64,000 bases of DNA from an uncultured Bacteroidales bacterium (lineage in GTDB: Bacteria > Bacteroidota > Bacteroidia > Bacteroidales > Paludibacteraceae), in NCBI GenBank assembly GCA_902765485.1, contig CACWZZ010000009.1, positions 1 to 64,000 of the forward strand. Reading direction: 5' to 3'. Under the pieces are notes generated by a model. That model saw nothing but the letters and a program-made list of their open reading frames with translations. It ran no database searches and was not told the DNA's origin. Positions 25,727 to 56,735 of the stretch are shown here, in pieces (positions within the stretch are counted from its first letter, which is position 1; each line of letters opens with the position of its first letter). The position numbers were made by a program, and so were the translations under genes.

Positions 25727-25892
25727 TCGGTTCGTACTTTGTTCATTGCGCCCAAATCGAATTTGGGCACGGCTTCGCCGTTCTCTCTCCCCCTCTCCGC
25801 CATCCTCTTTGTTCCCTTCGGTGGCATTTTTGCCGCCGTTAGATTCTTTGTATTGCGCCGACTGCCAGTCGGCATTTCCCCTACCTCCCTTT

Positions 25893-25920
25893 CCTCCCCC
25901 TTTAGGGGGCCGGGGGGCTT
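25893..25920. repeat. CT-rich palindromic element (GGGGGCCGGGGGGCTT type)
   Basis: A CCTCCCC/TTTA/GGGG palindrome followed by GGCCGGGGGGCTT. The same sequence recurs at 26089-26116 and inverted at 56545-56572; all three copies are intergenic. Confidence 0.8.
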
Positions 25921-25947
25921 TGACCTGTTTGCATGCTGTCAACTATT

Positions 25948-26002
25948 AGTGATTCTTTAGTGATTCATTAGTGATTCTTTGGTGATTCATTAGTGATTCA
26001 TA
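25948..26002. repeat. 11-bp tandem array (AGTGATTCTTT/AGTGATTCATT)
   Basis: Five units of exactly 11 bp. The same unit makes the inverted array at 56381-56446. No spacers, so it is not CRISPR. Confidence 0.88.
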
Positions 26003-26088
26003 GGTTAGTAAGCGAATCACAAGCATCTCACAGTATAATCTCTCTATGTTTTTACCATGTCTAACCCCTCATCCTCCCCCGCCCTCTT

Positions 26089-26116
26089 CCTCCCCTTTTA
26101 GGGGGCCGGGGGGCTT
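26089..26116. repeat. CT-rich palindromic element, second copy
   Basis: Nearly identical to 25893-25920, including the GGGGGCCGGGGGGCTT end. It lies just downstream (on the minus strand) of the strong terminator at 26149-26190. Confidence 0.8.
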
Positions 26117-26148
26117 GGCTTGGGGGCTTTTCCCACTCACCCTGAGAC

Positions 26149-26190
26149 ACAAAACAAGGAGCCTCCCAACCGGAAGGCTCCTTGTTTTGT
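26149..26190 (-). terminator. Strong intrinsic terminator
   Basis: Perfect 16-bp arms (26149-26164 and 26175-26190) around a 10-base loop, with AAAAC/GTTTT at the base so that either strand can end in a T-rich run. It lies 16 bases past the stop of the 44-residue peptide gene. It would end the transcript carrying the 1551-residue protein and insulate the glucan locus. Confidence 0.9.
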
Positions 26191-26206
26191 AAGGAAGAAC
26201 CGAGGA

Positions 26207-26341
26207 TCAATAAATGATTATTTCTTCTCCGTTTGCATCTTTCGTGCCTTTTAATCCTCCGCCGCTGACATTTCCTGTCATGAGCATAAAGGATGTGAGG
26301 CACTCGGTCACTTGGGTAACAGGACGATTGTATGTTTTCAT
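26207..26341 (-). CDS. Small peptide of 44 residues, unknown function
   Basis: The frame runs from ATG (26341) to TGA (26207) with no signal peptide: it begins MKTYNRPVTQVTECL and ends NGEEIIIY. The middle TGNVSGGGLKG is rich in glycine. I know of similar short MK-Y-P-x-x-x-V peptides with glycine-rich C-terminal halves in other Bacteroidales, but no proven function. It starts 21 bases after the stop of the 1551-residue gene and is followed by the terminator, so it is probably the last gene of that transcript. Placement in a tight slot before a terminator supports it being real. Confidence 0.6.
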   Translation of the reverse strand: MKTYNRPVTQVTECLTSFMLMTGNVSGGGLKGTKDANGEEIIIY

Positions 26342-26362
26342 AATTGTGTCAAATTTAGAGGG

Positions 26363-29300
26363 TTATTTAATCAATTGTCCTTGCGCGTTGTACGTGCGAT
26401 TACCTTTCATAATAAGGAGTTGTCCGTCACGGATCACCTTGGTACATGGTACATTGTCATCTTGTACATTACCTACTCCTGTCGCCACCTCCGTCTCATG
26501 GCTGTTGAATATCACCCTTGCGCGCGGAGCACCGTTTGCGCCACCGCTGGACGGGAATTTCAGCACGAAATAACCTCGGAGCGCGTTCATCTTCTGTGTA
26601 TTCACAAGACTTGAAGTGGTATAGAGATACCGGTCGCCACCAAGCACATAGCCGTTAATAATCCCTTGTAATTGCGAACCATTCATCGGCGCATAGATAC
26701 CATAGTATTTAGCATAGCCGTCAGCGGGCTCCGTCGGATGGAGATCCTTGTGTACGGTCACACCCGTGAAGACAGGATTAGTTACATTTGCGCTTGGCGT
26801 ATAGAGGTAAGGCACGCCTGCCTCGATAGCCTCCACATCCACGAAATTGATTCGCAGATCGTCGTTTTCCTTAACGATTGTATTATTGAGTCTTGTCAGC
26901 TGTCCTGGCAACTTCTCAGCCCTCATCGCTGCATCCACATTAAACGGCAGCACGAGGGTGTATAGGTTTCCCGCTGTGAAGGAACGGTTTACAATCGCAT
27001 TAACCGTTGCTCCATCGTTGGAATTGATAGTTGATGTATTATCTACTGCTTCGTCCAATTCCATAACAGCGGCGTTAGCATAGACTTCAAATTCACAAAG
27101 TCTGAACCCAATATCACTTCTTGTCTTAGAGCGGAAACGTACATATCGTGCTACTCCACTTACTTCCGTCGTTACGGTAGAGTTTGCAGTTGCACCTGTT
27201 ACCTCTTTTATGTCATCCCATGCTGCATCACTTGCTGCTTCTTCAGGAGTTGGTTCAGTTTTTCTTCCCTGTAAAATATAATCGGTAGAGCATGACGCAT
27301 CCCATTTCGTTACAATTCTTGACAGATTATACAAAGCACCGAGGTCAACATAAAGCCATTCGTTTTCTGCGGGTTGACTATTCCATGTAGCCCAATATGT
27401 AGAAGGATCTCCATCTATCGCCTTTTCCTTAGATTCAACTTCTCCTCCTGTCTCATATCCTACTACAACAGTTTTATTCTTAGCGATATTTCCCGCAGTA
27501 GCCGGAAGACGCACAACTAACGGAGTAACAGAAGATAAGTTTGCTGCCTTATCCATTGCTTGAATCTCAAAACTATACGGGGTATTTAGATCAAAACCTG
27601 CAATCGTTATTTTATTTTCTCCGTCGGTAGTATATAAAGCCTTTTCACCTGTAGTCGTATTTACAACACGGAACGTTTTAATAGCGCCATCCTCTGCATC
27701 GGTTGCTTCGAGGGTCAAATAAGCATTACCTTCTCCGTAAGTTACGGATGCAGAAGTTATCTCCGGAGCATTAGTATCTTCCGTTGCATATGCAGAACCA
27801 AATACGCGGAATTCCCAAAGTTTGAGGTAATTACCTTGCATTGTCAATGCTTTCATTCGGACATAACGAGCAGAAGCATTAAGAGCATAGTGATTTACAT
27901 TCTCTTCCGCATTGCCTGTATTCTGCGGTCCTTCCACTTCCAAAACAGTATACCATTGTGAGTCATCCGATTTGTCAGTTGGTTCAGAATGCGCTACTTG
28001 GATCAGATAATGATCTGACTTATCTGCCCAGAATAATTCTACAGCAGAGAGTTGATATACATCACCTAAGTCAACAGACCACCACTGTTCAGACATAGGA
28101 CGTTTTCCTGTTGAACTCCAAGTAGTCCACGGGGTTCCCAAATTATTATCGTTTGCATATTCCGGTTTTTCTCCAGTGTTCTCATAGAATCCAGCTGTTG
28201 CCTCTTTAGAAAATGCCAAGTTTGCAGACGGATTGAATATCTCTACATTTACACTCACACTATTTTCTGAAATATTTGCCGCCCCATCAATAGCTTCAAT
28301 AGTAAACGTATATTTTCCCATTGCTAAATCACTAATCGTTGCATGATGCTCTGCATCAGTATTAACAATGAATGTATTTCCATGACCGTCGTTTACTCGG
28401 AATTTATTAACTGTCCCTTCCTCATCTGTCGCTGTTAATGTAAGTGTTACGCTTGACCAGATAGGATTATCATATACCGTTGCGGTTTCCATTACTGGTG
28501 CATTTGCATCACCTGCAGCAATACCTGAGCCGAATACTCGGAATTCCCACATACTAAATCCCCATTGACCATTAAGCGAGTTTTCCGATGATTTGATGCG
28601 AACATAGCGTCCCACATTACCCGTTACATTGTAAGAGTTTTTATTTGTTTCAGCAGTTGCTGCTACATTACTATGCCCAGGCTCTTCACCGCCTTCTGCC
28701 GTAGTATACACATTTGTCCATTTGCTTTCGTCGCTGGAAGGATCTTCAGTTGCTACTTGCAATACGTATTTTCTTGGATATGCATTATCAAAAGATATTT
28801 CAATACGAGTCAAATCATATTTATCACCTAAGTCAACATACCACCATTGAGTAGAGATATCCGGCCACTCGCCTGTTGCCCACCTTTGGGTAATATCCCC
28901 ATCGTTAGCTCGATAAATCTCAGATCCTCCTACTTCTTTTCCTGCATAAGCAGGTTTGTTTAGAGCCAGATTCCAAGTGGAATAATCAGGGGTACAATCA
29001 GCAGTTTTGTAGAAATACAAATTTGTGAACCACATTTTCTTGCCGCCGGACAATCCATTGAATTTGAACTGCCAAACACGGGCCATACTTAAACCTTTAT
29101 CTTTAAATTCCGATATAGGAATATCTATGCTTTGCCATGTACCTACTGCAGTAATTGTTCTATCTACATGCTGTTCCGGTTCATTCCCAGTTCCTGCTTC
29201 ATTCCAGTTAATTGGATCAAACTGAATAGTTGTCGTTTGCGGAACCCATACATCCACATGCATATAATCATACTCAGAAACATCAATAGTAGTTGCATTA

Positions 29301-31018
29301 CCGCCTTCTTTCTCGAATCCATAGCAACCGGTACTTCCAGAAAGTTTCTTTACCTTTTTGCCTGCAATCATAATGTCTTCTGCTGTTCCTCCGCACCACA
29401 ACGCATTATTTAGTTTAGTTGTCTGTCCCGAATAGTTATAATCACTATATAAACTATAAACCTGACAAGCCTTCTGCAATGTGACTTCCGGAGCCTCATT
29501 CGGTTCGCTTGCACAAATAACTGAATTGGTATAATAATATATATTTGTAATATAGAATTGCGTATTGTTGAGATCTTGGAAATATAACAATACAGATGTT
29601 GCCAAATCAGCACTGCTGTGCTCAAATTCGCTAAGTGGTATGCTGACTGTTTTCCATTCTTCTGCAGTAGTCGTAAAGTTTTTCTTTGCACCATACTGCC
29701 ATCCGCCATTCCAGCAAACTATCTGGAGTCCAAAAGTTTTTGCTTCCGCACACCAAACATCAAATTGCACGTGAGTATAGTCGCGGATATCTTTATCGCC
29801 GATTCCTCCTGCGAAACCTAAACCTGACATGATGTGATCAACAGATTTTCCACTTAACGAAATTACCTCATGAGTACTTCCTCCCCATGTTGGTTCATAT
29901 CGAGTAAAACCGGGGGCAGCATACTTAGTTGTTCCTAATATCCCCTGCACTTGACATTCTTCTCTAGATTCATCGTTTGCAGGTGCGGTCGTAGGAACAG
30001 GAACAGCAGCTTCTTCTACTTCACAGTCGTGCGATTTATAATATACACATAAAGGATCGTCAAGACTCACATTATTTGAGTTTTGCTCATTTCCTGGAAT
30101 TGCTGTGGTACTATACACAAAACGAATAGCAATTTCCGTTCCATTTGCAGGAGCTGTTTGTAACCATGTAGCGACTCCATCGGTGATGCTCAAGGCACCG
30201 GAATTCCCAGATGTTGTGTGTATTTCAAGATAATCCAAAACTTCTGTATTATATCCCCTTACAGTATATTTAATTTTGTCACTCAAAGGAAGATATTCGA
30301 TCGTGTAACTGATACGTTTTGTTTCTGGAGTAGCAACATACCCTAAATCTCCTGAACATTGACTTGAACGTGGCACCGTCACGACAATTGTTTGTAATCC
30401 TGCCTTATAGTGATTTGTTGCATCAATTGCTTGTTTTACGGTAATCGTCGTCGTTCCACCTGCTACTGCCGTAATACGTCCGTCTGAATTAACTGTAGCC
30501 ACATTAGGATTAGACGACGTATATGTAATTGCACCGGAAGAAGATGTTGTTTTTATTATATCAGATGTCTCTCCTGCTGCTAGGGAAATATTTACACTTG
30601 ATGTAATGGTCAAATCTGAGGCGTTAAATCCTCGATCGTCAATTCCATCTTTGTTATAGAGAGTAAAACCCCATCTTACCGTTCCATTATTTTTTACATA
30701 AATATCTGTATACATAGCCTCTAATGGCAGATGTACCCAAATACATGCTCCTTTTACGTGATTGTCCCATTCACAACCTGTTACTTCATTAAAAGCAGCA
30801 TTATCAAATGTGACATAAACAGAAGGAATACCCTCCGATAACTGAATATTATCAACATTGGCTGGCATAGCCACATTTTCAATAGCCATCCATTGTATTT
30901 TTCCAGAATACGCTTCACACCCACCAGCACCAGCAACACCGATATCTGTGTTCTGTTCTGTTGCCCACCCCATCACACTCACGCAGAAGAGCGCAAAAAG
31001 AATTGTTAATTTTCTCAT
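26363..31018 (-). CDS. Very large secreted multi-domain binding protein
   Basis: A 1551-residue secreted protein (signal VMGWATEQ). Domains in order: an N-terminal region with a Big2-like module at ~165-215 (ITYTSSNPNVATVNSDG), two beta-sandwich modules at ~360-500 and ~515-680 (VQFDVWCAEA...NIYYYT; HVDVWVPQTT...NLYFYK), three F5/8C discoidin domains at ~685-835, ~940-1090 and ~1195-1330 with Ig-like linkers, a C-terminal region and the shared tail (KVIRDGQLLIMKGNRTYNAQG). No catalytic motif was seen. It parallels the 841-residue protein that opens the glucan locus and probably binds extracellular polysaccharide. The linker before its tail is coded by a degenerate heptamer array (26438-26470). 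Confidence 0.7.
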   Translation of the reverse strand: MRKLTILFALFCVSVMGWATEQNTDIGVAGAGGCEAYSGKIQWMAIENVAMPANVDNIQLSEGIPSVYVTFDNAAFNEVTGCEWDNHVKGACIWVHLPLEAMYTDIYVKNNGTVRWGFTLYNKDGIDDRGFNASDLTITSSVNISLAAGETSDIIKTTSSSGAITYTSSNPNVATVNSDGRITAVAGGTTTITVKQAIDATNHYKAGLQTIVVTVPRSSQCSGDLGYVATPETKRISYTIEYLPLSDKIKYTVRGYNTEVLDYLEIHTTSGNSGALSITDGVATWLQTAPANGTEIAIRFVYSTTAIPGNEQNSNNVSLDDPLCVYYKSHDCEVEEAAVPVPTTAPANDESREECQVQGILGTTKYAAPGFTRYEPTWGGSTHEVISLSGKSVDHIMSGLGFAGGIGDKDIRDYTHVQFDVWCAEAKTFGLQIVCWNGGWQYGAKKNFTTTAEEWKTVSIPLSEFEHSSADLATSVLLYFQDLNNTQFYITNIYYYTNSVICASEPNEAPEVTLQKACQVYSLYSDYNYSGQTTKLNNALWCGGTAEDIMIAGKKVKKLSGSTGCYGFEKEGGNATTIDVSEYDYMHVDVWVPQTTTIQFDPINWNEAGTGNEPEQHVDRTITAVGTWQSIDIPISEFKDKGLSMARVWQFKFNGLSGGKKMWFTNLYFYKTADCTPDYSTWNLALNKPAYAGKEVGGSEIYRANDGDITQRWATGEWPDISTQWWYVDLGDKYDLTRIEISFDNAYPRKYVLQVATEDPSSDESKWTNVYTTAEGGEEPGHSNVAATAETNKNSYNVTGNVGRYVRIKSSENSLNGQWGFSMWEFRVFGSGIAAGDANAPVMETATVYDNPIWSSVTLTLTATDEEGTVNKFRVNDGHGNTFIVNTDAEHHATISDLAMGKYTFTIEAIDGAANISENSVSVNVEIFNPSANLAFSKEATAGFYENTGEKPEYANDNNLGTPWTTWSSTGKRPMSEQWWSVDLGDVYQLSAVELFWADKSDHYLIQVAHSEPTDKSDDSQWYTVLEVEGPQNTGNAEENVNHYALNASARYVRMKALTMQGNYLKLWEFRVFGSAYATEDTNAPEITSASVTYGEGNAYLTLEATDAEDGAIKTFRVVNTTTGEKALYTTDGENKITIAGFDLNTPYSFEIQAMDKAANLSSVTPLVVRLPATAGNIAKNKTVVVGYETGGEVESKEKAIDGDPSTYWATWNSQPAENEWLYVDLGALYNLSRIVTKWDASCSTDYILQGRKTEPTPEEAASDAAWDDIKEVTGATANSTVTTEVSGVARYVRFRSKTRSDIGFRLCEFEVYANAAVMELDEAVDNTSTINSNDGATVNAIVNRSFTAGNLYTLVLPFNVDAAMRAEKLPGQLTRLNNTIVKENDDLRINFVDVEAIEAGVPYLYTPSANVTNPVFTGVTVHKDLHPTEPADGYAKYYGIYAPMNGSQLQGIINGYVLGGDRYLYTTSSLVNTQKMNALRGYFVLKFPSSGGANGAPRARVIFNSHETEVATGVGNVQDDNVPCTKVIRDGQLLIMKGNRTYNAQGQLIK
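26438..26470. repeat. Degenerate heptamer array before the tail of the 1551-residue protein
   Basis: CTTGGTA/CATGGTA/CATTGTC-type units encode VQDDNVPCTKV. Confidence 0.65.
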
Positions 31019-31304
31019 AATATTAGTATTTAAAGTTTTTTCTATTTATTGCTTTGAGTACTTTTTACTCCTACCAACGCGCTGCATAGATTTTTCTTAT
31101 TTTCCAATCCCGAAGGGATATTTTTGTAAGCAGCCCATCAGTGCCTACTTAGGCAATTGATGGAGACCAAGGGCTTGAATGACGACAGGAAGCTTGCTTA
31201 CTGATCGGCTTACAGGGACTTGGGCGCAAGAGCCATTAGGCTCGGGGGCTGCGCATTTTCGATTTCCTAAAGCACTCAAAGGTTTTATCATTGTTTTTAC
31301 TCTA
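31019..31304. other. 286-base intergenic region with possible structured RNA
   Basis: No gene is supported here. Bases 31130-31252 can fold into a closed multi-branch structure (described as its own entry), and ATCCC/GGGAT at 31108-31120 forms a further small hairpin. A promoter-like AACCTTTG at 31277-31284 on the minus strand is one base off consensus and lacks a -33 box at 20 bases. Confidence 0.45.
31130..31252. ncRNA. Candidate structured RNA or leader element
   Basis: GCAGCC (31130-31135) pairs with GGCTGC (31247-31252), enclosing three nested helices: CATCA/TGATG with inner GCCT-ACTT-AGGC (31136-31162), CCAAG/CTTGG (31167-31171 with 31219-31223) and GAGCC-ATTA-GGCTC (31230-31243). On the minus strand it would lie about 110 bases before the 1551-residue gene. 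It matches no RNA family I recognise, and the strand is unknown. Confidence 0.3.
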
Positions 31305-32210
31305 TTACCGGATCTCGGCGCCGAGCGCGTTGTAACGGATACCGTTCTTGATGATATAGAGCATGCCGTTGCGTAGCACCTTCTGATAACTGATAGCTGA
31401 AGGCTGAATGCTTTCCACTCCTTGCCCCGGATTCTCACCCGGCTCGTCACCCGGCTGCTCGTTGCTCGCGCCTACCGTATAATCCACATCTATACGCGCG
31501 GCATTGCCGGTATAGGCGATGAGGAAGAAAATCACCGGTTTGTCGCCGTCGGTATAGGTCTCTTTCGTCGTAAAACGCGCCATCGTACCCTGCATCGGCA
31601 GCGTGGAATAAGCATCGTTGATACTGACCTGCGGCACGACACCTGCTATCTCGCTTGACCAGCTGATCTCGAACGTCAGCGTAGCGTCCGCATTGCGGGT
31701 GATGGACCAGTTGAACGTCACATCCGTTCCGGCTACATCTTTTACTTCTCTGCCGTAGAAAGTAGCAGGTGTGAGGTCGCCCTCCTGCGGTTCGTCGCCC
31801 GGTTCGTCGCCCGGCTCATCCCCCGGCTCATCGGAGATCTCACCCGTGCCATCGGCATAGAACACCTTGAAATCATACGTCACGCCGCCTGCTTCCACCG
31901 ACACAGCCGTCTCTTTCGCCGTAAAAGCGGAGAGATATAAATAGATACCTGCGCCGTTGATCCGGTACTGGTCTGCGGGCAGCGAACAAGAGGTCACCGC
32001 CGCCAGGAAATACGAATAGATAGCCGGTTTGTCGCCGTCCAACTGGATATTGACCACGTTCTGTCCGAACGCAGCCTCCACTTTGTACTTGTTGGTGTAC
32101 GCACCGCCGCCGGCGCCGTCACCCAAGAAGGCGATACTGCTCCAGTCGGTGGCAAAACTCAATCCACTTGCGCACATAAGCGCCAATACAAAAGAGAAAA
32201 TCTTTTTCAT
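31305..32210 (-). CDS. Secreted protein with GDEP-repeat linkers and C-terminal tail
   Basis: A 301-residue protein with a clear signal (MKKIFSFVLALMCASGLSFA). Two beta-rich domains of unknown family (~22-125 and ~150-255) are joined by acidic linkers, DEPGDEPGDEPGDEP and EQPGDEPGENPG. The shared tail (KVLRNGMLYIIKNGIRYNALG) closes it, and the linker SIQPSAISYQ before the tail is repeat-coded. An upstream in-frame start would overlap the aldo/keto reductase gene; 32210 lies 2 bases past that gene's stop and starts the signal peptide. Function unknown; exported or surface location is likely. Confidence 0.65.
   Translation of the reverse strand: MKKIFSFVLALMCASGLSFATDWSSIAFLGDGAGGGAYTNKYKVEAAFGQNVVNIQLDGDKPAIYSYFLAAVTSCSLPADQYRINGAGIYLYLSAFTAKETAVSVEAGGVTYDFKVFYADGTGEISDEPGDEPGDEPGDEPQEGDLTPATFYGREVKDVAGTDVTFNWSITRNADATLTFEISWSSEIAGVVPQVSINDAYSTLPMQGTMARFTTKETYTDGDKPVIFFLIAYTGNAARIDVDYTVGASNEQPGDEPGENPGQGVESIQPSAISYQKVLRNGMLYIIKNGIRYNALGAEIR
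31383..31412. repeat. Heptamer array before the tail of the GDEP protein
   Basis: CTGATAA/CTGATAG/CTGAAGG units; encode SIQPSAISYQ. Confidence 0.78.
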
Positions 32211-32212
32211 GG

Positions 32213-33154
32213 TTATAGAATTGTTTGTATGTTGTTTGCTAATTGTTCTACGGAGCTGGCACCGACGAGAACGGAGGTCACTCCTTTCTGGTCCAGCACC
32301 CACGAGAGCGCTTCCTGCGCGATGGAGCGGTTGCTCTTCTTCGCCTGTGCCTCCAGTTGCCGCAGGTACTCCAGCAGTTCCGGCGTGCGGCGGTCGGATT
32401 TGAGGAAATGCTCTTTCGCCATGCGCGAGTCCGACGGGATACCGTCGAGATACCGTGATGTCAGCAAGCCTTGCGCCAACGGAGAGAAAGCGATAAAACC
32501 GATCCCTTCCTGCGCGCAGAAATCCAAGATCCCCTGCTCTATCGGTTCGCGATTCAGCATATTCAGCCGTCCCTGGTAGATCAAGAGCGGCACGTCATGC
32601 TCTTTCAGATACTTGGCTCCGGCTTTGAGCGGTTCCAGAGGCCAGTTGGAGATACCGACGTAGAGCGCTTTGCCCATCCGCACGATGTCCACCAGCGCCT
32701 GCAGCGTCTCCTCGATCGGCGTATTCGGGTCATAACGGTGGGAATAGAACAGATCCACATAGTCCAGCCTCATCCGCCTCAGCGACTGGTCCAGACTGGA
32801 GATCAGATACTTGCGGCTGCCCCACTCGCCATAAGGACCGTCCCACATCAGATACCCCGCCTTGGTAGAGATAAAGAGTTCATCTCTGTACGGACGGAAA
32901 TCCTCGTCCATCAGCCGTCCGAAATTGGTCTCCGCGCTACCCGCAGGGACACCGTAGTTGTTTGCAAAATCAAAATGGGTGATGCCGTGGTCGAACGCAT
33001 AACGGGTGATCGCCCTACTGCGCTCTATCGGCGCATCATCGCCGAAATTATGCCAAAAGCCCAGACTGACTTTCGGCAGCAGCACTCCGCTCTTGCCGCA
33101 GCGGGAGAATATCTTCTCCGACAAAGCGTAACGTTCTTGTGAAGCCGTGTACAT
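32213..33154 (-). CDS. Aldo/keto reductase (MgrA/YghZ-like)
   Basis: A 313-residue NADPH-dependent aldo/keto reductase, closest in pattern to the L-glyceraldehyde-3-phosphate reductase group. Catalytic residues are visible: HFDFANNYG (Asp and Tyr), FISTKAGY (Lys) and LFYSHRYD (His). The cofactor-binding end is SVLVGASSVEQLANN. The start at 33154 is preferred because the promoter -7 box is at 33176-33183; a longer frame would begin before the transcript. It is cytoplasmic and appears co-transcribed with the secreted-protein gene 2 bases downstream. Confidence 0.9.
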   Translation of the reverse strand: MYTASQERYALSEKIFSRCGKSGVLLPKVSLGFWHNFGDDAPIERSRAITRYAFDHGITHFDFANNYGVPAGSAETNFGRLMDEDFRPYRDELFISTKAGYLMWDGPYGEWGSRKYLISSLDQSLRRMRLDYVDLFYSHRYDPNTPIEETLQALVDIVRMGKALYVGISNWPLEPLKAGAKYLKEHDVPLLIYQGRLNMLNREPIEQGILDFCAQEGIGFIAFSPLAQGLLTSRYLDGIPSDSRMAKEHFLKSDRRTPELLEYLRQLEAQAKKSNRSIAQEALSWVLDQKGVTSVLVGASSVEQLANNIQTIL

Positions 33155-33175
33155 GGTATTTTTCAATTTGCGACG

Positions 33176-33207
33176 CAAAGATACTACATTTCCCGCACAT
33201 GCACAAA
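33176..33207 (-). promoter_or_regulatory. Promoter of the aldo/keto reductase transcript
   Basis: Minus strand: TTTG (33204-33207), 20 bases, TATCTTTG (33176-33183), a full match to the Bacteroidota consensus. The start of transcription would be near 33170, giving a 16-base leader. Confidence 0.8.
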
Positions 33208-33214
33208 TGTCCAA

Positions 33215-33515
33215 ACATGTTATACGGCATAAAAGTACGTATATTTTACTACGTTATGATTATATATCAACCGGTTACGTTTTTCCGAAGGGCAAAAAAA
33301 GTACATAAAATGTAGCCCTCCTGGGCAAATTCCATGTTGTAAAATTTGGTCAATTCAAAAAAAAGTAGTACTTTTGTCGTCGGAATCGGCGATCAATGAC
33401 TTCGATACATCCGTATCTCGTATAATTGTCACGCTTCCTCCTCCCCCACCGGGCGCATTAACGCCCGTCGGAATCCCAAAAAGAGAAAAGAGAAGAAGAG
33501 AAAAGAGAGCCAATA
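33215..33515. other. Intergenic region between divergent promoters
   Basis: No gene is seen. It contains a TACGGCATAAAAGTACGTA block at 33223-33241 that recurs at 25448-25466, and the plus-strand promoter at 33345-33376. Confidence 0.6.
33345..33376 (+). promoter_or_regulatory. Promoter of the CotH/DUF6377 pair
   Basis: TTTG (33345-33348), 20 bases, TACTTTTG (33369-33376). Transcription would begin near 33383, leaving a leader of about 130 bases before the CotH gene. Confidence 0.78.
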
Positions 33516-35219: not shown

Positions 35220-35223
35220 TAAT

Positions 35224-36759: not shown

Positions 36760-36799
36760 GGTTATTTCGTCTAAATGCAGTCATTTCCCTGTCGCCTTC

Positions 36800-36843
36800 C
36801 TTACCACTTCGTTACCACTACGTAACGTTCGACCACGGTACGT
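36800..36843. repeat. Degenerate 11-bp array
   Basis: Four 11-bp units (CTTACCACTTC, GTTACCACTAC and two diverged ones) follow the regulator gene. It is the weakest of the five 11-bp arrays. Confidence 0.5.
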
Positions 36844-36973
36844 TCACGGCACAAAAGTACTGCTTTTTTTCAATAAATTATTATCATAATTTGAGAAATA
36901 TTTATCATTTTGTGCATTTTTTGTAAAAAAAATTGAAGGAAGACGATTTTTCTACATAAAAAATGCAAAAAAA

Positions 36974-37005
36974 TTTGGTCATGTCAAAAAAAAGCAGTAC
37001 CTTTG
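36974..37005 (+). promoter_or_regulatory. Promoter of tRNA-Lys
   Basis: TTTG (36974-36977), 20 bases, TACCTTTG (36998-37005), 22 bases before the tRNA. Confidence 0.85.
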
Positions 37006-37027
37006 CAGCCGCTTTTGAAAAGCAATC

Positions 37028-37100
37028 GTCTCCCTAGCTCAGTTGGTAGAGCAACTGACTCTTAATCAGTGGGTCGAGGGTTCGAGTCCCTCGGGGGACA
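37028..37100 (+). tRNA. tRNA-Lys (anticodon CTT)
   Basis: A 73-base cloverleaf. The acceptor GTCTCCC pairs with GGGGGAC (one G-T pair), the D-arm contains AGCTCAGTTGGTAGAGC, the anticodon loop CTCTTAA carries CTT, and the T-arm is GAGGG-TTCGAGT-CCCTC. CCA is not encoded. Confidence 0.97.
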
Positions 37101-37104
37101 CAAG

Positions 37105-37129
37105 AAAGGACATCCGATGGGTGTCCTTT
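37105..37129. terminator. Bidirectional terminator after tRNA-Lys
   Basis: AAAGGACATCC pairs with GGGTGTCCTTT (one G-T pair) around the loop GAT, followed by TTTT on the plus strand and preceded by A's that become T's on the minus strand. It lies 3 bases past the stop of the convergent nucleotidyltransferase gene and can serve both. Confidence 0.85.
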
Positions 37130-37131
37130 TC

Positions 37132-41234: not shown

Positions 41235-41333
41235 GATTATACTGAAGTTATACGGTGGTTATACGACTAACCCAATAATAACCCAATAATAACCCAATAA
41301 TGACCCAATAATATCCCAATAAAAGAACAATAA
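41235..41333. repeat. 11-bp tandem array (TAACCCAATAA)
   Basis: Nine consecutive 11-bp units. The middle ones are TAACCCAATAA with few changes; the first three (GATTATACTGA, AGTTATACGGT, GGTTATACGAC) and the last are diverged. The phase of 11 bp is kept throughout. It lies between divergent promoters. Confidence 0.9.
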
Positions 41334-43238: not shown

Positions 43239-43297
43239 TTAAGAAAAAAACATTGCCAATTTTTAATTAATTATATTAACCCTAAAAAATTAACACT

Positions 43298-44980: not shown

Positions 44981-44997
44981 TTGAGATTTGACATTTA
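44956..44997. repeat. Heptamer array at the mnmA start
   Basis: About five TTTGAGA/TTTGACA units. Two contain ATG on the minus strand; only the second is in frame with mnmA. Confidence 0.85.
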
Positions 44998-47851: not shown

Positions 47852-47864
47852 TCAGAATTCAGCT
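47841..47864. repeat. Heptamer array (ATTCAGC) before lpxK
   Basis: Three units span the 13-base gap between sppA and lpxK and the first codons of lpxK. Confidence 0.8.
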
Positions 47865-49640: not shown

Positions 49641-49644
49641 ATTA

Positions 49645-50256
49645 TTAAATTTTTAAATTAAACGTCATTCGGTGGTACGGTGTGGGTCCGTATTGGCGGA
49701 GAGCAGCATAGTGTTCCGCCGTAGGGTAGCCTTTGTTGGACGCCCATCCGTATTGGGGGTATTCGTTGTGCAGCCGCAGCATATAGTCATCCCGATAGGT
49801 TTTGGCGAGGACCGAAGCCGCGGCGATGGACATATAGGTAGCGTCGCCGTGGACGACTGTGTGCGCCGGAATCTCCAGCAGTTTCCCATCCGGCACATAG
49901 GGTTTCCATTTATTGCCGTCCACGAGTATGTGTTGCGGCCGGATGGTCAGTTTGTCCAACGCCCGCTGCATACCGAGGATGGAGCATTGGAGTATGTTTC
50001 GTTCGTCTATCTCTTGCGCGCTCACTTCGACCACCGCCCAAGCGAGTGCTTCCCGCTCGATGACAGGGCGCAAGGCATAGCGCTGTTTGTCGGTCAGTTG
50101 CTTTGAGTCATTGAGTTCCGCGAACTCAGGCACCTGCATGGCATGGTCGGGATCCAAGATCACCGCCGCGCAGAAGACGCTGCCAGCCAGCGGTCCTCGT
50201 CCCGCTTCGTCGCAACCGGCTTCCAAGACATTATGTATCATGCAGGGTTTCAGCAT
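49645..50256 (-). CDS. rnhB: Ribonuclease HII
   Basis: A 203-residue RNase HII that removes RNA from RNA/DNA hybrids and misincorporated ribonucleotides. EAGCDEAGRGPLAGSV holds the first catalytic Asp and Glu; LVDGNKW and AAASVLAKTYRDD complete the site. Start 50256 gives the usual distance of 16 residues to the DEAGRG motif; a start at 50241 is also possible. A CAGTATT heptamer array lies immediately upstream. Confidence 0.95.
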   Translation of the reverse strand: MLKPCMIHNVLEAGCDEAGRGPLAGSVFCAAVILDPDHAMQVPEFAELNDSKQLTDKQRYALRPVIEREALAWAVVEVSAQEIDERNILQCSILGMQRALDKLTIRPQHILVDGNKWKPYVPDGKLLEIPAHTVVHGDATYMSIAAASVLAKTYRDDYMLRLHNEYPQYGWASNKGYPTAEHYAALRQYGPTPYHRMTFNLKI

Positions 50257-50280
50257 TCAGTATTCAGTATTCAGCTATCA
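50250..50280. repeat. Heptamer array (CAGTATT) at the rnhB start
   Basis: Four units between the TamL-like stop and the rnhB start, running into the first rnhB codons. Confidence 0.82.
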
Positions 50281-52527
50281 GAATGGGTGTCCGATAGCAA
50301 AATGGAACGTCATGTCGTCTTTCCAGCCCAAGCCGTTCGGAGCGGTACGCCACTGTTTGCCTTCGGCTATACGGCTCGGGTCGTGCAGTTTGACACCGAA
50401 ATCGACACGGAAGACAAAGATCGAGAGGTCAAAACGGATACCCACTCCGTAACTCCAAGCTATCTGTTTATAAAACTGGTCGAAGAGGAACACGCCACCG
50501 GGTTGGGATTCGTAATCCCGGATGGTCCATATATTTCCCGCATCAAGGAATGCCGCCAGTTCCAAGAAGGTCAGCACTTTGAAGCGGTATTCGAGGTTGA
50601 GGTCCAGTTTGATATCGCCCACCTGCAGGTCATAAACCATGGTGTTGCCTGTTCCTCGGAACGTACCGGGTCCGAGCGTACGCGCTTGCCATCCGCGGAT
50701 GCTGTTAGCACCGCCACCGAAATAGCGTTTCTCGAAAGGCAGGACGGAGGCATTGAGATATGGAACCGCCACACCCAAACCGATGTGTCCCACCAAATGG
50801 TGCTCCGGTGTGATGATGCCATGATAAGTGAAGTTAATATCTCCCTTGGCATATTGGGCGAAGGGGATCTTCCATAACATGTGCTGGCCCGACTCATTCT
50901 GCGGTAAAGATGCAGCCTTTGCCAGACCATACAGCAGGTTTCCCGCTGTCTCGGCGCGCACGGCAAACTGCAAGTACGAGCGGTTCGGGAAACGCGGATT
51001 GAGGGTAGTGAACGTACCGGTATAGCTCCAGTCGAGGATGAAATGGTCCTCGTAACTGGCTTTGAGGACAGAGGCTTTCGACATAAACTGGTCCCGGAAG
51101 CGGTCGGACATCCAGGGTACGTATATATAGTTGATGTCCACGAGGTTGAACTGGTGAGTCCACCGGCTACCGGGCGTGCGAGGGATGATATAACTCAGAC
51201 CGGCATTGGCTATCGTCCGGGTATATTCCTCCGGCCGTTGCTGGTAGTTATAAGCAATATTAATCTTGACGTTGGATGGAAATAGGAGCCCTGCTTCCGC
51301 TTTGGCTTCGATGGCCCGTCCACCGTTGGCGCGCCATTCATAGGACGCACGACCACCGAGAGTCAGCACTTCGGCGCCCTTGAAGATGTTCTTGTTGGTG
51401 TAATTAACTCCTGCCGCCACGCCCCAGTCACCGGCACTATAGGTTCCTTCTACCTCCACGGCAAACTGGTTCAGCCTGCCGCGCGAGATTGTAATATAGC
51501 AGTCGAGCAGGCTGTCTCCTGCGGGATTAAAGGCTATATCCACGTATTTGACAGGAGCGAGTGCGTTCATTCGGGCGTACGTGCGCTCGACGCGCCATTC
51601 GGCGTACCGTTTATTGGGTTCCATGCGGCTGGCTTGACGGAGCGCGTTCTTGCGCAAGAAACGTCTTCCCGTCCAGCTGTACTCGTTGCCGTATTTATCG
51701 CTATCGCGCTTGAGCACCACCGAATCCGGTAGGTGGCTCGGGTCGTAATCAATCTGGTAATAGACCTTGCGCAGGGAATATTGGGTGCGCAGTTTCTTGA
51801 GCGAAGCGGAATCGAGTTGCGACACGTATGGCGCAAAATGAATCCGGATGTCCACTTGGTGGGTGTTCAGCGAACTATCGGCTGTGAACTCCAGCATGGA
51901 TTTCTCGAAATAGAAATAACCTCTGTTGCGCAGGGTAGTCGCAATACGTTCACGTTCTTCGTCCAAGGCAGCGGTAGAAAACTGTTCCCCTTCGTGCACT
52001 TTGCATCGCTCGTCCGTAGCTATCGCCGCCACCGCCGGTTCCGGAATGTCCACCGTATAATGGCGGATCATATAGGGCTGGTGGGCGGTGATGAGATAAG
52101 TGAGGTTGATCTTACGGTCCTTGATCACTTTCTGGGTGTCCACTTCGGCGTGAAAATAACCCATGTTATTCATCTGCTGCCGCAGTTGCTGCATGCTGAT
52201 GCGGGTCAATTCTTCGTCGTAGATGACAGGCGCTTCGCCCATCTTATGGGCATTGCGCGCAAGTCGTTTGTTGGTTTTGGAGGTAGTATCCGAAGGAGCG
52301 GTGTTATAGACATGCAGTTGCAGTTTCCAAAAACCGAAGATCTCTGTGTTCTGCTTCTGGCGCAGATAGCCGCGTAGTTCGGCGGCGGAGACGTTCTTGT
52401 CGTCCACGCATCTGACTTTGGCTTTATTGAGCAGGTATTGCCCTTCCGGCACGAATTTCGTCGTGTTGCAGGAAGCCAACGCCATGACCATCGCCAGCAT
52501 CGGTAATATGTACCGCCGGATTTTCAA
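50278..52527 (-). CDS. TamL/BamA-family outer-membrane assembly protein, lipoprotein
   Basis: A 749-residue Omp85 protein. It has a lipoprotein signal (MALASC), POTRA-type domains in ~30-330 and a 16-strand-type barrel to the C-terminus, with RGWQARTLGPG (the conserved RGW/RGY-like motif of the family lid loop) and a final HFAIGHPF. The lipidated N-terminus fits TamL, the Bacteroidota form of TamA; a BamA-type role in outer-membrane insertion is the alternative. It overlaps the methyltransferase gene by 4 bases (ATGA). Confidence 0.87.
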   Translation of the reverse strand: MKIRRYILPMLAMVMALASCNTTKFVPEGQYLLNKAKVRCVDDKNVSAAELRGYLRQKQNTEIFGFWKLQLHVYNTAPSDTTSKTNKRLARNAHKMGEAPVIYDEELTRISMQQLRQQMNNMGYFHAEVDTQKVIKDRKINLTYLITAHQPYMIRHYTVDIPEPAVAAIATDERCKVHEGEQFSTAALDEERERIATTLRNRGYFYFEKSMLEFTADSSLNTHQVDIRIHFAPYVSQLDSASLKKLRTQYSLRKVYYQIDYDPSHLPDSVVLKRDSDKYGNEYSWTGRRFLRKNALRQASRMEPNKRYAEWRVERTYARMNALAPVKYVDIAFNPAGDSLLDCYITISRGRLNQFAVEVEGTYSAGDWGVAAGVNYTNKNIFKGAEVLTLGGRASYEWRANGGRAIEAKAEAGLLFPSNVKINIAYNYQQRPEEYTRTIANAGLSYIIPRTPGSRWTHQFNLVDINYIYVPWMSDRFRDQFMSKASVLKASYEDHFILDWSYTGTFTTLNPRFPNRSYLQFAVRAETAGNLLYGLAKAASLPQNESGQHMLWKIPFAQYAKGDINFTYHGIITPEHHLVGHIGLGVAVPYLNASVLPFEKRYFGGGANSIRGWQARTLGPGTFRGTGNTMVYDLQVGDIKLDLNLEYRFKVLTFLELAAFLDAGNIWTIRDYESQPGGVFLFDQFYKQIAWSYGVGIRFDLSIFVFRVDFGVKLHDPSRIAEGKQWRTAPNGLGWKDDMTFHFAIGHPF

Positions 52528-53300
52528 CTCTCCATTCTTCTGAATTCAGCCAAAACGATTGCGGTTGCGATTGCTACGTTGAGGCTCTCGGATGTCTCTG
52601 CGCCCTTGGGGTACGAAGGGATCCGGATGGGGTGCGTCACCAAACGACGCACCTCTTCCGAGATACCATTTCCTTCGTTGCCCATGATAATAATAGAACT
52701 TTCAGCCTTCAGCTTTGAGCCTTCAGCTGACAACTGATTTCTGATGGCAGACGACTCCTCGTACATGTCCTTGCCGTCTAATAATGTGCCGTATATTCCG
52801 ACATCTGAATGCTGAGAGCTGACGGCTTTCAGCCACTTGGCTACATCCGTGTAATGAACGCGTACGCGGGTGAGTGCTCCCATCGTAGCTTGCACCACTT
52901 TGGGATTGAAGCAGTCCGCCGTGTCGCGCGAACAGACGATGTCGTGCACTCCGAACCAGTCGCAGGTGCGAATGATCGTCCCGAGGTTTCCGGGGTTCTG
53001 CACGCCGTCGAGAGCAAGCAAAACCTCTCCCCCTGCCCTCTCCTCAAGAGAGGGAGCTAAAGGAAGGAGAGGTTTGCGGAAGACGGCGATGGTGCCTTGA
53101 GGCGTTTGGAGACCGCTCATCTGCTCGATCTCCACACGCGTAGCGTTCTCTCCCTCGCGGTAGAGAGCGACTAACTCAAAGCCTTTCTGCAACTCTTCCA
53201 CGCACTTATCGCCTTCGGCGACAAAGAGCCCGAACTCATCGCGGAATTTCTTCTGCTGCAGCGACCGAACCTGCTTTATTTCCGCCTTACTAATTCTCAA
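52524..53300 (-). CDS. SpoU/TrmH-family RNA methyltransferase, TTG start
   Basis: A 258-residue SPOUT 2'-O-methyltransferase. It shows LALDGVQNPGNLGTIIRT, IIIMGNEGNGIS and the knot motif PSYPKGAETSESLNVAIA, which binds S-adenosylmethionine. The substrate nucleotide (rRNA or tRNA) is not clear. The start must be TTG at 53300: the thrS stop is at 53308-53310 and no ATG intervenes. That TTG is part of an ATTGAGA array and occurs once per repeat. Inserts include a long palindrome (LLPLAPSLEERAGG) and two heptamer-coded stretches (VSSQHSD; LSAEGSKLKAES). Confidence 0.92.
   Translation of the reverse strand: MRISKAEIKQVRSLQQKKFRDEFGLFVAEGDKCVEELQKGFELVALYREGENATRVEIEQMSGLQTPQGTIAVFRKPLLPLAPSLEERAGGEVLLALDGVQNPGNLGTIIRTCDWFGVHDIVCSRDTADCFNPKVVQATMGALTRVRVHYTDVAKWLKAVSSQHSDVGIYGTLLDGKDMYEESSAIRNQLSAEGSKLKAESSIIIMGNEGNGISEEVRRLVTHPIRIPSYPKGAETSESLNVAIATAIVLAEFRRMES
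52701..52832. repeat. Two heptamer arrays inside the SpoU gene
   Basis: CAGCCTT/CAGCTTT-type units at 52701-52735 and CTGAATG/CTGAGAG-type units at 52800-52832. Both are in frame and encode serine-rich inserts not expected in the family. Confidence 0.7.
53021..53075. repeat. Long palindromic element inside the SpoU gene
   Basis: Outer arms AAACCTCTCC (53021-53030) and GGAGAGGTTT (53066-53075) are perfectly complementary. Inside is the family-A palindrome CCCTCTCCTCAAGAGAGGG. It is in frame and encodes PLLPLAPSLEERAGGEVL. Confidence 0.9.
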
Positions 53301-53309
53301 TTCTCAATT
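53293..53309. repeat. Heptamer array forming the SpoU start codon
   Basis: Two ATTGAGA units lie between the thrS stop and the SpoU frame. Each has a TTG; only the second leads into the gene. Confidence 0.8.
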
Positions 53310-55251
53310 AGTACGCGCTCATCTGCGCTTTTACCGTCTCGTTGATGAAGTCTGCGAACTCTTGGATCGTCATAGAGCCCTTCTCTTCGGCACCTTGCTG
53401 GCGAACGGAAACAAGTCCTTGCTCCGCTTCTTTCTCACCCACGATGAGCATGTACGGAATACGCTTCAACTCGTTGTCGCGGATCTTACGTCCCAGTTTC
53501 TCGTTGCGGTCATCTACGATGACGCGGACGTCCTGTGCCTCCAGCATCTCTTTCACTTTCCATGCGTACTCGTTCGATTTCTCGGAGATCGGCAGAACGA
53601 CAGCCTGATCCGGCGTGAGCCACAGCGGGAACTTACCTGCGGTATGTTCGATCAGCACGGCTACGAAACGCTCCATAGAACCGAACGGCGCACGGTGGAT
53701 CATTACCGGACGGTGTTTCTGGTTGTCCTCACCGGTGTACTCCAGTTCGAAACGCTCCGGCAGGTTGTAGTCCACTTGGATCGTACCGAGTTGCCAACGG
53801 CGACCGAGTGCGTCCTTGACCATGAAGTCGAGTTTCGGGCCGTAGAAGGCTGCTTCGCCGGTCACTTCGCGTGCGGGCAGGTTCATCTCCTTGCAAGCCT
53901 CGCGGATCGCGTTCTCTGCGTGCTCCCAGATCTCATCCGAGCCCACATATTTCTCGCGGTTGTTGGGGTCACGAAGAGAGATCTGCGCTTCGTAGTTCTC
54001 GAAGTTCAGCGCCTTGAAGATGATATTGATGATCTCCATGACGCGGATGAACTCTTGTTTCACCTGGTCGGGACGGCAGAAGATATGTGCGTCATCCTGC
54101 GTGAACGAACGCACGCGGGTCAGACCGTGCAACTCACCGGATTGCTCATAGCGATAGACGGTACCGAACTCGGCGCAGCGGAAAGGCAGGTCCTTGTAGC
54201 TCTTCGGGCTGTTCTTGTAGATCGCACAGTGGTGAGGGCAGTTCATCGGTTTGAGCATATATACCTCGCCTTCCTCCGGCGTCGTGATCGGCTGGAACGA
54301 GTCTTTGCCGTAGTGATCCCAGTGACCCGAGGTCATGTACAGCTGCTTGGAACCAATATGCGGCGTGATGACCTGCTGGTAACCGTAACGTTTCTGGATC
54401 TTCTTCAGGAAATCCTCCAGACGCAGACGGAGCGCTGTTCCTTTCGGCAGCCAGATCGGCAGACCTTTTCCGACCATGTCGGAGAACATAAACAACTCCA
54501 ACTCCTTACCGATTTTACGGTGGTCGCGTTTCTTTGCCTCTTCGAGGAGCGCAAGATACTCGTCTAACATCGCTTTCTTCGGGAACGAGATTCCGTAAAT
54601 ACGGGTCATCATCGGACGTTTCTCATCGCCACGCCAGTAAGCCGCGGAGCAGGAAAGTACTTTGACCGCTTTGATCGGTTCCGTACTCAGCAAGTGCGGA
54701 CCTTTGCAGAGGTCGGTAAACGCGCCCTGCGTATAAGTGCTTATATGTCCGTCCTCCAACTCGGAGATTAACTCGCACTTGTAGGTCTGACCTTTGTCTC
54801 CAAACGCCTTCAGCGCATCGGCTTTGGAGATCGAACGCTTGACGAGCTGCTCTTTCTTCGCGCGAAGCTCCATCATCTTGTTCTCGATGGCTGCGAAGCA
54901 GGTGTCGTTGATGACTACACCCTCAGGCGGCATGACGTCGTAGTAGAATCCGCTCTCGATCGCCGGACCGATACCAAACTGGATACCCGGATAGAGTTCC
55001 TGCAGGGCTTCCGCCATCAGGTGGCTGGACGTGTGCCAGAAAGCGTGTTTCGCTTCCTCGTCCTCCCACTTGTGCAGTTTGATTGCTGCATCTTCCTCAA
55101 TCGGGAAATTCAACTCTACAATTTTATCATTCACACTGGCGCACAAGATATCTTGCGCGAGGCGGGAGCTGATGCTCTCCGCAATCTGCAGCGGCGTTAC
55201 GCCGCTTTCGTACTCACGGACGCTTCCGTCCGGAAAAGTAATTTTAATCAT
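53308..55251 (-). CDS. thrS: Threonyl-tRNA synthetase
   Basis: A 647-residue class II synthetase that charges tRNA-Thr. N-terminal TGS domain (1-62), editing domain with HxxxH (FWHTSSHLM), catalytic core with MNCPHHC and SGHWDHYG, and the anticodon-binding C-terminus ([10 protein letters not shown]). Zinc-binding Cys and His are in MNCPHH and the later [10 protein letters not shown]. Full length for the family. It follows the TonB-like gene by 21 bases. Confidence 0.98.
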
Positions 55252-55272
55252 AATATATTGATGTTGTGATAT

Positions 55273-56208
55273 TTATTGCAATCTAAAATTCACCGGCACG
55301 GTGTATTTGACGCGAACCGGTTTGCCTCTCTGTCTGCCGGGTTGCCATCTCGGCATGGACTTGATCACGCGTACTGCCTCTCTGTCGAGCGAAGGATCGC
55401 CGCCTGTGCGAACGACCTCCACGTTCTCTATCTTGCCGTCCTTGGCAACCACGAACTGCACGATCACGCGTCCTTCGATCGAATTCTCCTGCGCGATCTT
55501 CGGGTATTTGACGTTCGCAGAGAGGAACTCCACCAGCGCATCTTGTCCACCCGGGAACTCCGGCATCTGCATATAGGGCTCAAACTTCTGCTTCGGACGT
55601 TTTACTACTTTGCCTTTTTCGTTGTAATAAACGGTCGTCAGGTTGGTGGTCGTCTCGTCCATTGTTTCCTCGTATTGCAGCGCGCCGTCCGGGTAATAGC
55701 ACTTGCGGGTATAGAAAATGCCCTCTGCGCCGTATTTGGAGGCTTTGTAACTCAGGATCACTTCCTCTTTGGTCTTGCCGTTCGGATAGAGGTAGGTCTC
55801 TTGCGCCAGCCGGCTGCGCGCTTTGGTCGGAGGCGTGCCGGGCACCACGCTCTTGCGCTCCTCGATCACGAGGGTGTATATCTCCATGGCTTCCACTTTG
55901 CCCTCTGCGTCAAAATAGAGTTGTTTGCCTTTCTGCAAACCCTGCCCTTCTCCTGTCGCCACGCGTTTCTGGACGGAGCGCAAGCGATCCTCCGCTTTCG
56001 TATAATACTGCATGGTCACGGTATTGGACGCGGTGTCCACTTTCTTGACCAGCCCGTACATCGTCGCTGCCTCCGGTGCAACGGCTTCGTAGCTGTCATT
56101 CACCCATATCTTGGCACCCACCGCATAAGGCGGAGTTGCTTGATCTTCTGCTTGCGCGAACGCCCACGCAGGCATGCACAAAACAATAAAAATTAACAGT
56201 CTTTTCAT
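55273..56208 (-). CDS. TonB C-terminal-domain protein, periplasmic
   Basis: A 311-residue exported protein with a cleavable signal (MPAWAFAQAE). Its last ~90 residues are a TonB C-terminal domain: PGGQDALVEFLSANVKYP, EGRVIVQFVVAKDGK, DREAVRVIKSMPRWQPG and VPVNFRL. The central part looks like a toxin-antitoxin-type YwqK repeat region (YYPDGALQYEETMD). A classical membrane anchor is lacking, so energy coupling like true TonB is doubtful. The start at 56208 fits the promoter; earlier ATG codons (56220, 56244) lie at or before the transcript start. Confidence 0.82.
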   Translation of the reverse strand: MKRLLIFIVLCMPAWAFAQAEDQATPPYAVGAKIWVNDSYEAVAPEAATMYGLVKKVDTASNTVTMQYYTKAEDRLRSVQKRVATGEGQGLQKGKQLYFDAEGKVEAMEIYTLVIEERKSVVPGTPPTKARSRLAQETYLYPNGKTKEEVILSYKASKYGAEGIFYTRKCYYPDGALQYEETMDETTTNLTTVYYNEKGKVVKRPKQKFEPYMQMPEFPGGQDALVEFLSANVKYPKIAQENSIEGRVIVQFVVAKDGKIENVEVVRTGGDPSLDREAVRVIKSMPRWQPGRQRGKPVRVKYTVPVNFRLQ

Positions 56209-56241
56209 GTTCCTTTTCATACACACGTACATTTGAGCCTG

Positions 56242-56273
56242 CAAAATTACTACTTTTTTTTGAGATATGCAAG
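56242..56273 (-). promoter_or_regulatory. Promoter of the tonB-like/thrS operon
   Basis: Minus strand: CTTG (56270-56273), 20 bases, TAATTTTG (56242-56249). The boxes are the same as in the glucan-locus promoter. It is the only promoter recognised for the nine-gene run down to mnmA. Confidence 0.75.
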
Positions 56274-56359
56274 AGTTTTGTGCATTTTTGCGCTCAGGAG
56301 GGCGAAAAAAGGGAGTAAAAAAGCGGCTGGAAAAGATACGATGGGGACGCTGTGGTTAT

Positions 56360-56735
56360 AGTGTGAGGCGCTTACTAACCTATGAATCACCTAAGAATCA
56401 CTAAAGAATCACTAAAGAATCACTAAAGAATCACTAAAGAATCACTAATAGATGACAGCATACTAACCCCACCCCGGGTTGTTCTACGGACGGCCACCGG
56501 CAGTCCGATCGAGCAGAGCTCTTCACCCCCTCAAGGGGAGGAGGAAGCCCCCCGGCCCCCTGAAGGGTGAGGAAAGGGAAATGCCGACTGGCAGTCGGCG
56601 CAATACAAAGAATCTAACGGCGGCAAAAATGCCACCGAAGGGAACAAAGAGGACGGCGGAGCCGTGCCCGATTCAAGAAGAAAGGGGAGGACGAAGCCGT
56701 GTCCAAATCAGATTTGGACGCAATAAACAAAGTCA
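56360..56735. repeat. Composite intergenic repeat, copy 2 (inverted)
   Basis: On the minus strand it has the same order as copy 1: hairpin (56701-56719), 78-bp core identical to copy 1 (56576-56653), palindrome at 56583-56599, GC-rich palindrome (56545-56572), GCATGCTGTCA link and 11-bp array (56381-56446). The hairpins of the two copies differ by a compensated base pair (C-G in copy 1, T-A in copy 2). Confidence 0.85.
56381..56446. repeat. 11-bp tandem array, inverted copy
   Basis: Six units of AGTGATTCTTT (minus strand), the last two slightly changed. Copy 1 at 25948-26002 has five. Confidence 0.88.

Follow-up and report, generated by a model that had tools for sequence, protein, structure and literature searches.

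What two inverted copies of a composite repeat represent is the question raised by the stretch of DNA analyzed here, the first 64,000 nt of contig CACWZZ010000009.1 from an uncultured member of the Paludibacteraceae (Bacteroidales; assembly GCA_902765485.1), hereafter called the window. The copies lie about 30 kb apart, copy 1 on the plus strand (about 25735-26010) and copy 2 on the minus strand (about 56735-56375), as a first-pass annotation of the sequence had reported; it took them for a miniature inverted-repeat transposable element (MITE)-like sequence or an unknown structured RNA. Our analysis indicates that they are very probably clusters of repetitive extragenic palindrome (REP)-type, single-foot hairpins that fold in single-stranded DNA and that are, or formerly were, recognized and spread by REP-associated tyrosine transposase (RAYT)-like HUH/Tyr transposases of the same genus. 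We base this on the anatomy of the repeated unit, its dispersal in the genus, the covariation of its stem, its intergenic location and the occurrence of RAYT-like genes in many genomes that have it. It is further based on tagged hairpins beside and inside those genes, the concordance of their tags, a link with unit copy number, and presence or absence at an orthologous site.

A tagged hairpin dispersed through one genus

The main part of each window copy is a unit of about 33 bp, composed of a tag with the consensus TTTGTNNATTGC, a 19-nt hairpin and a final A. In copy 1 the unit occupies 25737..25769 (plus strand), with the tag TTTGTTCATTGC (25738-25749), the hairpin GCCCAAAT-CGA-ATTTGGGC (25750-25768) and the closing A; in copy 2 it occupies 56700..56732 (minus strand), with the tag TTTGTTTATTGC, the hairpin GTCCAAAT-CTG-ATTTGGAC (56719-56701) and again a closing A. 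The loops differ, and the second pair of the stem is C-G in one copy and T-A in the other, just as the first-pass annotation had noticed. We built a model of the unit, R1, from seven units; the two window units, both among the training rows, matched it with 54.0 bits (E 1.6e-13) and 55.3 bits (E 6.6e-14), respectively. An extra, exact copy of the tag lies 22 bp upstream (56741..56754, minus strand), is not accompanied by an 8-bp hairpin and gave a weak R1 match of 14.6 bits.

Matches to R1 at E ≤ 0.001 were found in 44 of the 61 genomes of the genus, and in 59 at E ≤ 0.5, a threshold at which the weak ones include chance matches and at which genomes G066 (97) and G056 (71) had the most. Beyond the genus, 1 of 58 genomes from other genera of the family had matches (G085, four), and among 118 further genomes of the order 2 had a single weak match each. 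The exact tag TTTGTNNATTGCGT had 107 occurrences across the 61 genomes; the reversed pattern had 11. As judged from relatives of the threonyl-tRNA synthetase (ThrRS; best 80 of 592 confirmed loci, RUG and RGIG genomes being closest among them), the host genus consists of herbivore-gut Paludibacteraceae, from ruminants and other herbivores. Conservation begins one base ahead of the tag and stops one base past the hairpin, in 79 units of G066 as in 86 from other genomes. Past these ends little is common except a weak trace of a second hairpin; 12 units of the clade of the window genome are alike further downstream. In a stricter set of 161 units (126 distinct hairpins), 64 were directly followed by a perfect hairpin of at least 5 bp, compared with 3.7% of random windows, and 157 lay outside genes predicted by our own script, inside which 53% of random positions fell. 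In G066, some units carry a short insert in one hairpin arm, the same insert recurring in different units (21 nt at L284 and L292, about 47 nt at L281, L286 and L288); most of the 21-nt sequence stands alone at the site of a distant ortholog (L346).

Stem covariation was checked in 103 distinct windows, picked by the exact tag only from the 107 tag places. The four middle pairs were all Watson-Crick in 62 of the 103, against a mean of 5.1 with shuffled partners (maximum of 15 in 500 shuffles) and 0 to 1 with partners slid by 1 to 3 positions, and each of the four positions showed all four Watson-Crick types. The compensated pair of the window is thus one case of a family-wide pattern, and the proposal that such compensation reflects a folded form, in RNA or in single-stranded DNA, holds generally across the family. 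Near-perfectly Watson-Crick stems would also be produced by template switching during replication, perfecting functionless palindromes with compensation in one step, while ordinary duplication spread them; the arm inserts and tandem copies do indicate an active mutational history. This explanation leaves the conserved unpaired tag and the sharp unit ends unaccounted for, as it does the tag-matched hairpins in and beside RAYT genes and the copy-number link described below, and we regard it as improbable.

The imperfect stems bear on the nature of the folded molecule. Wobble-type mismatches in the 161 units comprised 18 G.T and 14 A.C (P 0.60) and were thus symmetric between strands, marking no RNA strand and favoring DNA over RNA. 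A looser unit set (tags with up to two mismatches, loose stems; 464 distinct) gave a G.U excess of 286 to 214 (P 0.0015) and was discarded because most of its arms were sequences found only once, as chance matches tend to be.

RAYT-like genes and the hairpins they carry

At its cut-off, the Pfam Y1_Tnp profile detected no RAYT in the window genome or in G066 (25 and 10 genomes scanned). Two sub-threshold matches, in G010 and G007, had R1 units at their 3' ends and revealed a RAYT-like family. A profile built from these two proteins, which are 62% identical, found the family in 42 of the 61 genomes, including three genes in the window genome (on C16, C31 and C18), so that the standard cut-off misses these genes. 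In an alignment of 32 proteins, selected for length and an unbroken reading frame, M81, P82, H84 and H86 (the M, the P and both H of MPDHxH), Y159, N163 and R166 are invariant, as are several residues of the C-terminal region; by sequence, the family thus has the HUH motif and the single catalytic tyrosine of the Y1 fold. NCBIfam REP_Tyr_transpos matched 31 of the 32 proteins at E ≤ 0.01 and Pfam Y1_Tnp matched 14. The two members whose scores were displayed fell short of the curated cut-offs (32.7 and 30.0 bits against 80 for NCBIfam, 19.7 and 20.3 against 23 for Y1_Tnp). The best solved relative of the protein profile was 2xo6, listed as a transposase (E 0.006), which we take to be ISDra2.

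The protein is about 330 residues long, and its conserved C-terminal region of some 130 residues had no convincing match among Pfam or Protein Data Bank (PDB) profiles. A DprA-like domain was considered for this region and dropped: neither Pfam nor PDB supported it, and the best of the scattered Pfam matches reached E 0.005 in 2 of the 32 proteins. A phage origin was likewise rejected, the exact unit pattern and RAYT relatives both giving 0 matches in viral contigs; a search of plasmids and phages with one query protein also returned 0 relatives. This divergent RAYT-like HUH/Tyr transposase is the likely partner of the units.

Many of the genes contain a hairpin of their own. With perfect 6-bp arms as the definition of a strict hairpin, 30 of the 46 RAYT genes examined had one between the HUH and Tyr motifs. 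The 35 hairpins in this interval were read in frames 0, 1 and 2 in 19, 13 and 3 cases, arguing that a DNA palindrome is kept rather than one peptide. Together with the symmetric wobbles, the persistence of the in-gene palindrome through changing reading frames is why we favor a folded form that acts in DNA rather than RNA. Strict hairpins reached 0.98 per kb within the 46 genes, 33 of which had one, and 0.91 per kb over the flanking 600 bp. For comparison, 33 ThrRS loci had 0.074 per kb, and a further count over 59.4 kb of ThrRS sequence gave 0.

The tags at RAYT loci vary (TTTGTC, TTCGTC, TATGTC, CAACGTC, TTTCTTC, TCTCCGT and others), and they vary together. Tag concordance between the in-gene hairpin and one at the end or in the flank averaged 0.87, against 0.676 when permuted, in the 25 of 49 loci that had both. 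With hairpins outside the gene only, it was 0.842 against 0.661 in 18 loci, the maximum of 2000 permutations being 0.742, and removal of near-duplicate loci left 0.837 against 0.661 in 16. In the window genome, the three RAYT genes carry TTTCTTC and TCTCCGT tags. Just 3' of the gene on C31 stands TTCTTCCATTGC-CCCGACTGCCAGTCGGG, the palindrome of the window core (see below) with its closing pair exchanged, and the TTTCTTC tag, that of the C31 and C18 genes, recurs on dispersed units at L003, L006 and L339, the last with the stem of copy 2. Tag concordance, hairpin density and the C31 palindrome thus point to genes accompanied by REPs that have copies dispersed in the genome, though a strict flanking hairpin is seen at a minority of loci (see below). 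At one locus (L378, G074:C41), about 20 tandem TTTGTC-tagged hairpins surround two adjoining RAYT-like genes or fragments, with three hairpins between HUH and Tyr of one.

Unit number follows the transposase family. Genomes with RAYT-like genes had a median of 8 units (n=42), against 2 in those without (n=19; P 0.002). Those with an in-gene TTTGT tag had a median of 18.5 (n=8), against 5 in all others (n=53; P 0.0007) and 8 in others whose RAYT locus was read (n=25; P 0.011). This rule-based count replaces an earlier comparison in which six genomes had been selected by inspection (median 23.5 against 5, P 0.0005).

By analogy with IS608 and the Escherichia coli TnpAREP as described in excerpts of PMC6006769 and PMC8266576, the RAYT-like protein would bind tag and hairpin as single-stranded DNA, and the tag at the hairpin foot would set the cleavage site, as the guide does in IS608 and canonical REPs. 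Insertion beside older units may then have built the mosaics, and the in-gene hairpin probably links each transposase to its own recognition signal.

Direction of transcription and comparison with known systems

The orientation of the units tells in part for an RNA. In gaps between co-directional genes (62 units), 54 lay on the strand of the genes and 8 on the opposite strand; counted per locus, 32 went with the genes, 7 against, with 1 tie. G066 alone contributed 29 units with the genes and 0 against, and along its contigs unit strand changes with gene strand (L131-L150, L281-L294 and L312-L331). Units flanked by genes lie nearer to the upstream one (median 288 nt against 475). These data suit an explanation in which the units are hairpins of 3' untranslated regions that end transcription or protect messages and are selected as folded RNA. 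Such selection should leave an excess of G.U-type over A.C-type mismatches, yet the two are about equal; the palindrome is kept within coding sequence in three reading frames; the units of the window genome's clade oppose gene direction (0 of 3 in co-directional gaps lie along the genes' strand); and no Rfam family matched at its gathering score. We therefore consider a mainly RNA-level explanation unlikely. Within the window Rfam recognized only a tRNA, and five loci gave three matches, all far below the gathering score; with parts exchanged as modules, the idea of one unknown structured RNA was given up. Replication bias as the cause of the strand bias in G066, to which the common strand of units on a contig had pointed, was also rejected, since over 400 kb of two contigs the units track gene direction and there is no consistent GC skew.

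Clusters of transposase-recognized DNA hairpins remain the preferred reading, and several observations weigh against it. Its mechanism does not predict co-orientation with transcription, which points to a role at the RNA level or to preferential insertion; with units tending to lie along transcription, an added RNA-level role is possible. Of the 46 RAYT genes, 16 lacked a strict hairpin in the interval from HUH to Tyr (for 6 of them, the script did not recognize the Tyr motif). Outside the gene, just 16 of the 46 loci had one within 600 bp, and the tandem array of L378 raises the flank density. In 7 of the 25 concordance loci the sole partner hairpin is at the gene's own 3' end. The window genome (assembly 83% complete) showed no RAYT gene with a TTTGT tag, and when TTTGT is counted on either side the copy-number link weakens (P 0.002 relative to all others and 0.041 relative to those with a read RAYT locus). 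In G066, whose unit count is the highest, the single RAYT member is divergent (110 bits) and has no strict in-gene hairpin, and units at E ≤ 0.001 occur in 11 of the 19 genomes that gave no RAYT match. The site orthologous to copy 1 in the sister species G075 is occupied by another block rather than cleanly empty, which would hide any target duplication. Finally, the tag is not the GTAG/GTGG tetranucleotide (GT[AG]G) found at the hairpin foot of canonical REPs. The units do agree with canonical REPs as 20- to 40-bp intergenic palindromes in many copies, being about 33 bp long, nearly all outside genes and present in up to 97 R1 matches. On their sequence features, we class them as REP-type elements of a non-GTAG RAYT lineage.

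The closest described relatives differ in detail. In the excerpts of PMC6006769, TnpAREP subclass 2.4 (Bertels group 4), reported from Cyanobacteria, Bacteroidetes and other phyla, has REPs between HUH and Tyr within the gene, and double-foot REPs are described. There the tag is GT[AG]G and the Tyr motif YIxNNP, whereas here the tag is TTTGTNNATTGC-like and varies by gene copy, and most of the 32 aligned members have Y[VI]xMNPQR; the protein of about 330 residues with its conserved C-terminal region and the two displayed scores below the NCBIfam cut-off are further differences. Subclass 2.6 (Bertels group 5), according to the same excerpts, is similar in being mostly from Bacteroidetes and in having "atypical secondary structures" on its flanks that recur at other genomic sites. 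It is dissimilar in its Tyr motif (YIH[QN]NP) and, by the table given there, its shorter protein, and these excerpts mention no in-gene REP. CGTC-tagged REPs, reported from five phyla, Bacteroidetes among them (PMC3733652), are also intergenic palindromes of 20 to 40 bp that are tagged at one end. In those elements CGTC is unpaired, A-T pairs nearly always open the stem, the tail mostly fits CCA and there is no associated transposase. In the units studied here GTC is part of the stem, opposite GAC, the tail consists of A, and there is an association with RAYT-like genes, which sets them outside that class. IS608 and ISDra2 (IS200/IS605), described in part in PMC6006769 and PMC8266576, share the HUH/Tyr transposase and have subterminal hairpins whose foot carries a guide tetranucleotide; here, in contrast, hairpins are dispersed singly and no two-ended element was seen.

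Three features appear new: a tag that departs from GTAG and changes from one gene copy to the next, the C-terminal region, and a series that extends over a whole genus; we found no literature on this RAYT-like/REP family among open PMC papers. We lean, with some reserve, toward the view that one genus carries many parallel, possibly orthogonal RAYT-REP pairs, in which many genes, with their conserved C-terminal region, store their own signal as a REP within the open reading frame, its tag covarying with the surrounding REPs. If so, this would be a natural series from which the recognition code of a single-strand transposase could be read in sequence. The choice of REPs by RAYTs has been examined in vitro with three pairs, according to the excerpts of PMC8266576. 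A single genus offers dozens of such genes whose tags differ, and 30 of the 46 examined have an in-gene signal, making a tag-protein code testable by simple swaps. The same reading accounts for a family of repeats that populates the intergenic regions of herbivore-gut Bacteroidales.

Mosaic copies in the window and at orthologous sites

Each window copy is a mosaic with the unit as its main part. The description as a composite of about 300 bp is apt, but not as that of one element. Copy 1 lies between two minus-strand genes and copy 2 between a gene for a TonB-domain protein and a divergent gene. Directly 3' of the copy-1 unit is a second small hairpin, ACGGC-TTC-GCCGT (25769..25781, plus strand, read from the sequence). 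The core, 78 bp identical in both copies as reported earlier (25803..25880, plus strand; 56576..56653, minus strand), is the longest identical run between them. It is the sole source of 30-mers common to both orientations in the window, arguing that its identity is not due to chance. It includes the hairpin GGTGGCA-tttt-TGCCGCC (25820-25837 in copy 1) and a second tagged unit, TTTGTATTGC followed by GCCGACTG-C-CAGTCGGC, at 25847-25873 (plus) and 56609-56583 (minus). A G+C-rich palindromic module and an 11-bp tandem array follow in both copies, in the order first described. The module lies at 25891..25920 (plus strand), with another copy at 26087-26116, and at 56545..56572 (minus strand, read from the sequence); short matches to it occur at other places in the genus and also in G034, a genome from a different family. 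The array, with the unit ATTAGTGATTC in copy 1, lies at 25945..26001 (plus strand) and 56384..56448 (minus strand).

Short, intergenic and geneless repeats could also be MITEs, non-autonomous DNA transposons that have terminal inverted repeats and depend on a DDE transposase for movement. No inverted pair of at least 12 bp was found in 25400-26160, the tag is one-sided, and the ends of the unit are fixed by the tag and a single hairpin, which leaves the MITE suggestion with hardly any credibility.

In the window genome, the order of array, core and first unit is kept in further copies (L002, L003 and L006), with parts missing or doubled, and L007 has the array only. At the site orthologous to copy 2, the genome RUG13776 (L171) has the tag, the hairpin, the core with small differences and the array. 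In G075 (L161), the flanks, the first hairpin and the array are kept and the core is replaced by another tagged hairpin; this module or a close variant was seen in three of the four other G075 loci read (L162, L163 and L165, not L164). A related module occurs once in the window genome (L339), indicating that within-genome homogenization is incomplete. The core at this site thus varies by species (L161-L165, L171 and window 56576-56653).

The copy-1 site of G075 (L343) shares both flanks with the window, CGAACGATTCTTTCCG on the left and TGTTTGCATGCTGT plus the array on the right. The copy-1 unit is not present there; a block of about 120 bp with other hairpins stands where the unit, core and G+C-rich module would be, so the block at this site was gained or lost since the species split. 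G250 (L344) has other tagged units at this site, on the opposite strand, and three of the five orthologous copy-1 loci (L346, L347 and L348) were too diverged for comparison by eye. Directly upstream of copy 1 lies an 83-bp sequence in 1.9 repeats (window 25568-25726) that contains TGTCCTGTTTCCGGC repeats; at the G075 site it is kept and mostly repeated as well.

Tandem arrays with a period of 11 bp (or 22 or 33) and unrelated unit sequences recur in the window (10812-10875, 25945-26001, 41268-41322 and 56384-56448) and at L312-L331. They make up 4 of the 10 intergenic arrays in the window and 14 of 51 and 12 of 25 in two stretches of G066 contigs, and lie mostly upstream of genes, the period being common and the sequence not. 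Tandem repeats of periods 7 and 14 form the other frequent class, in the window and at many intergenic sites of G066 contigs.

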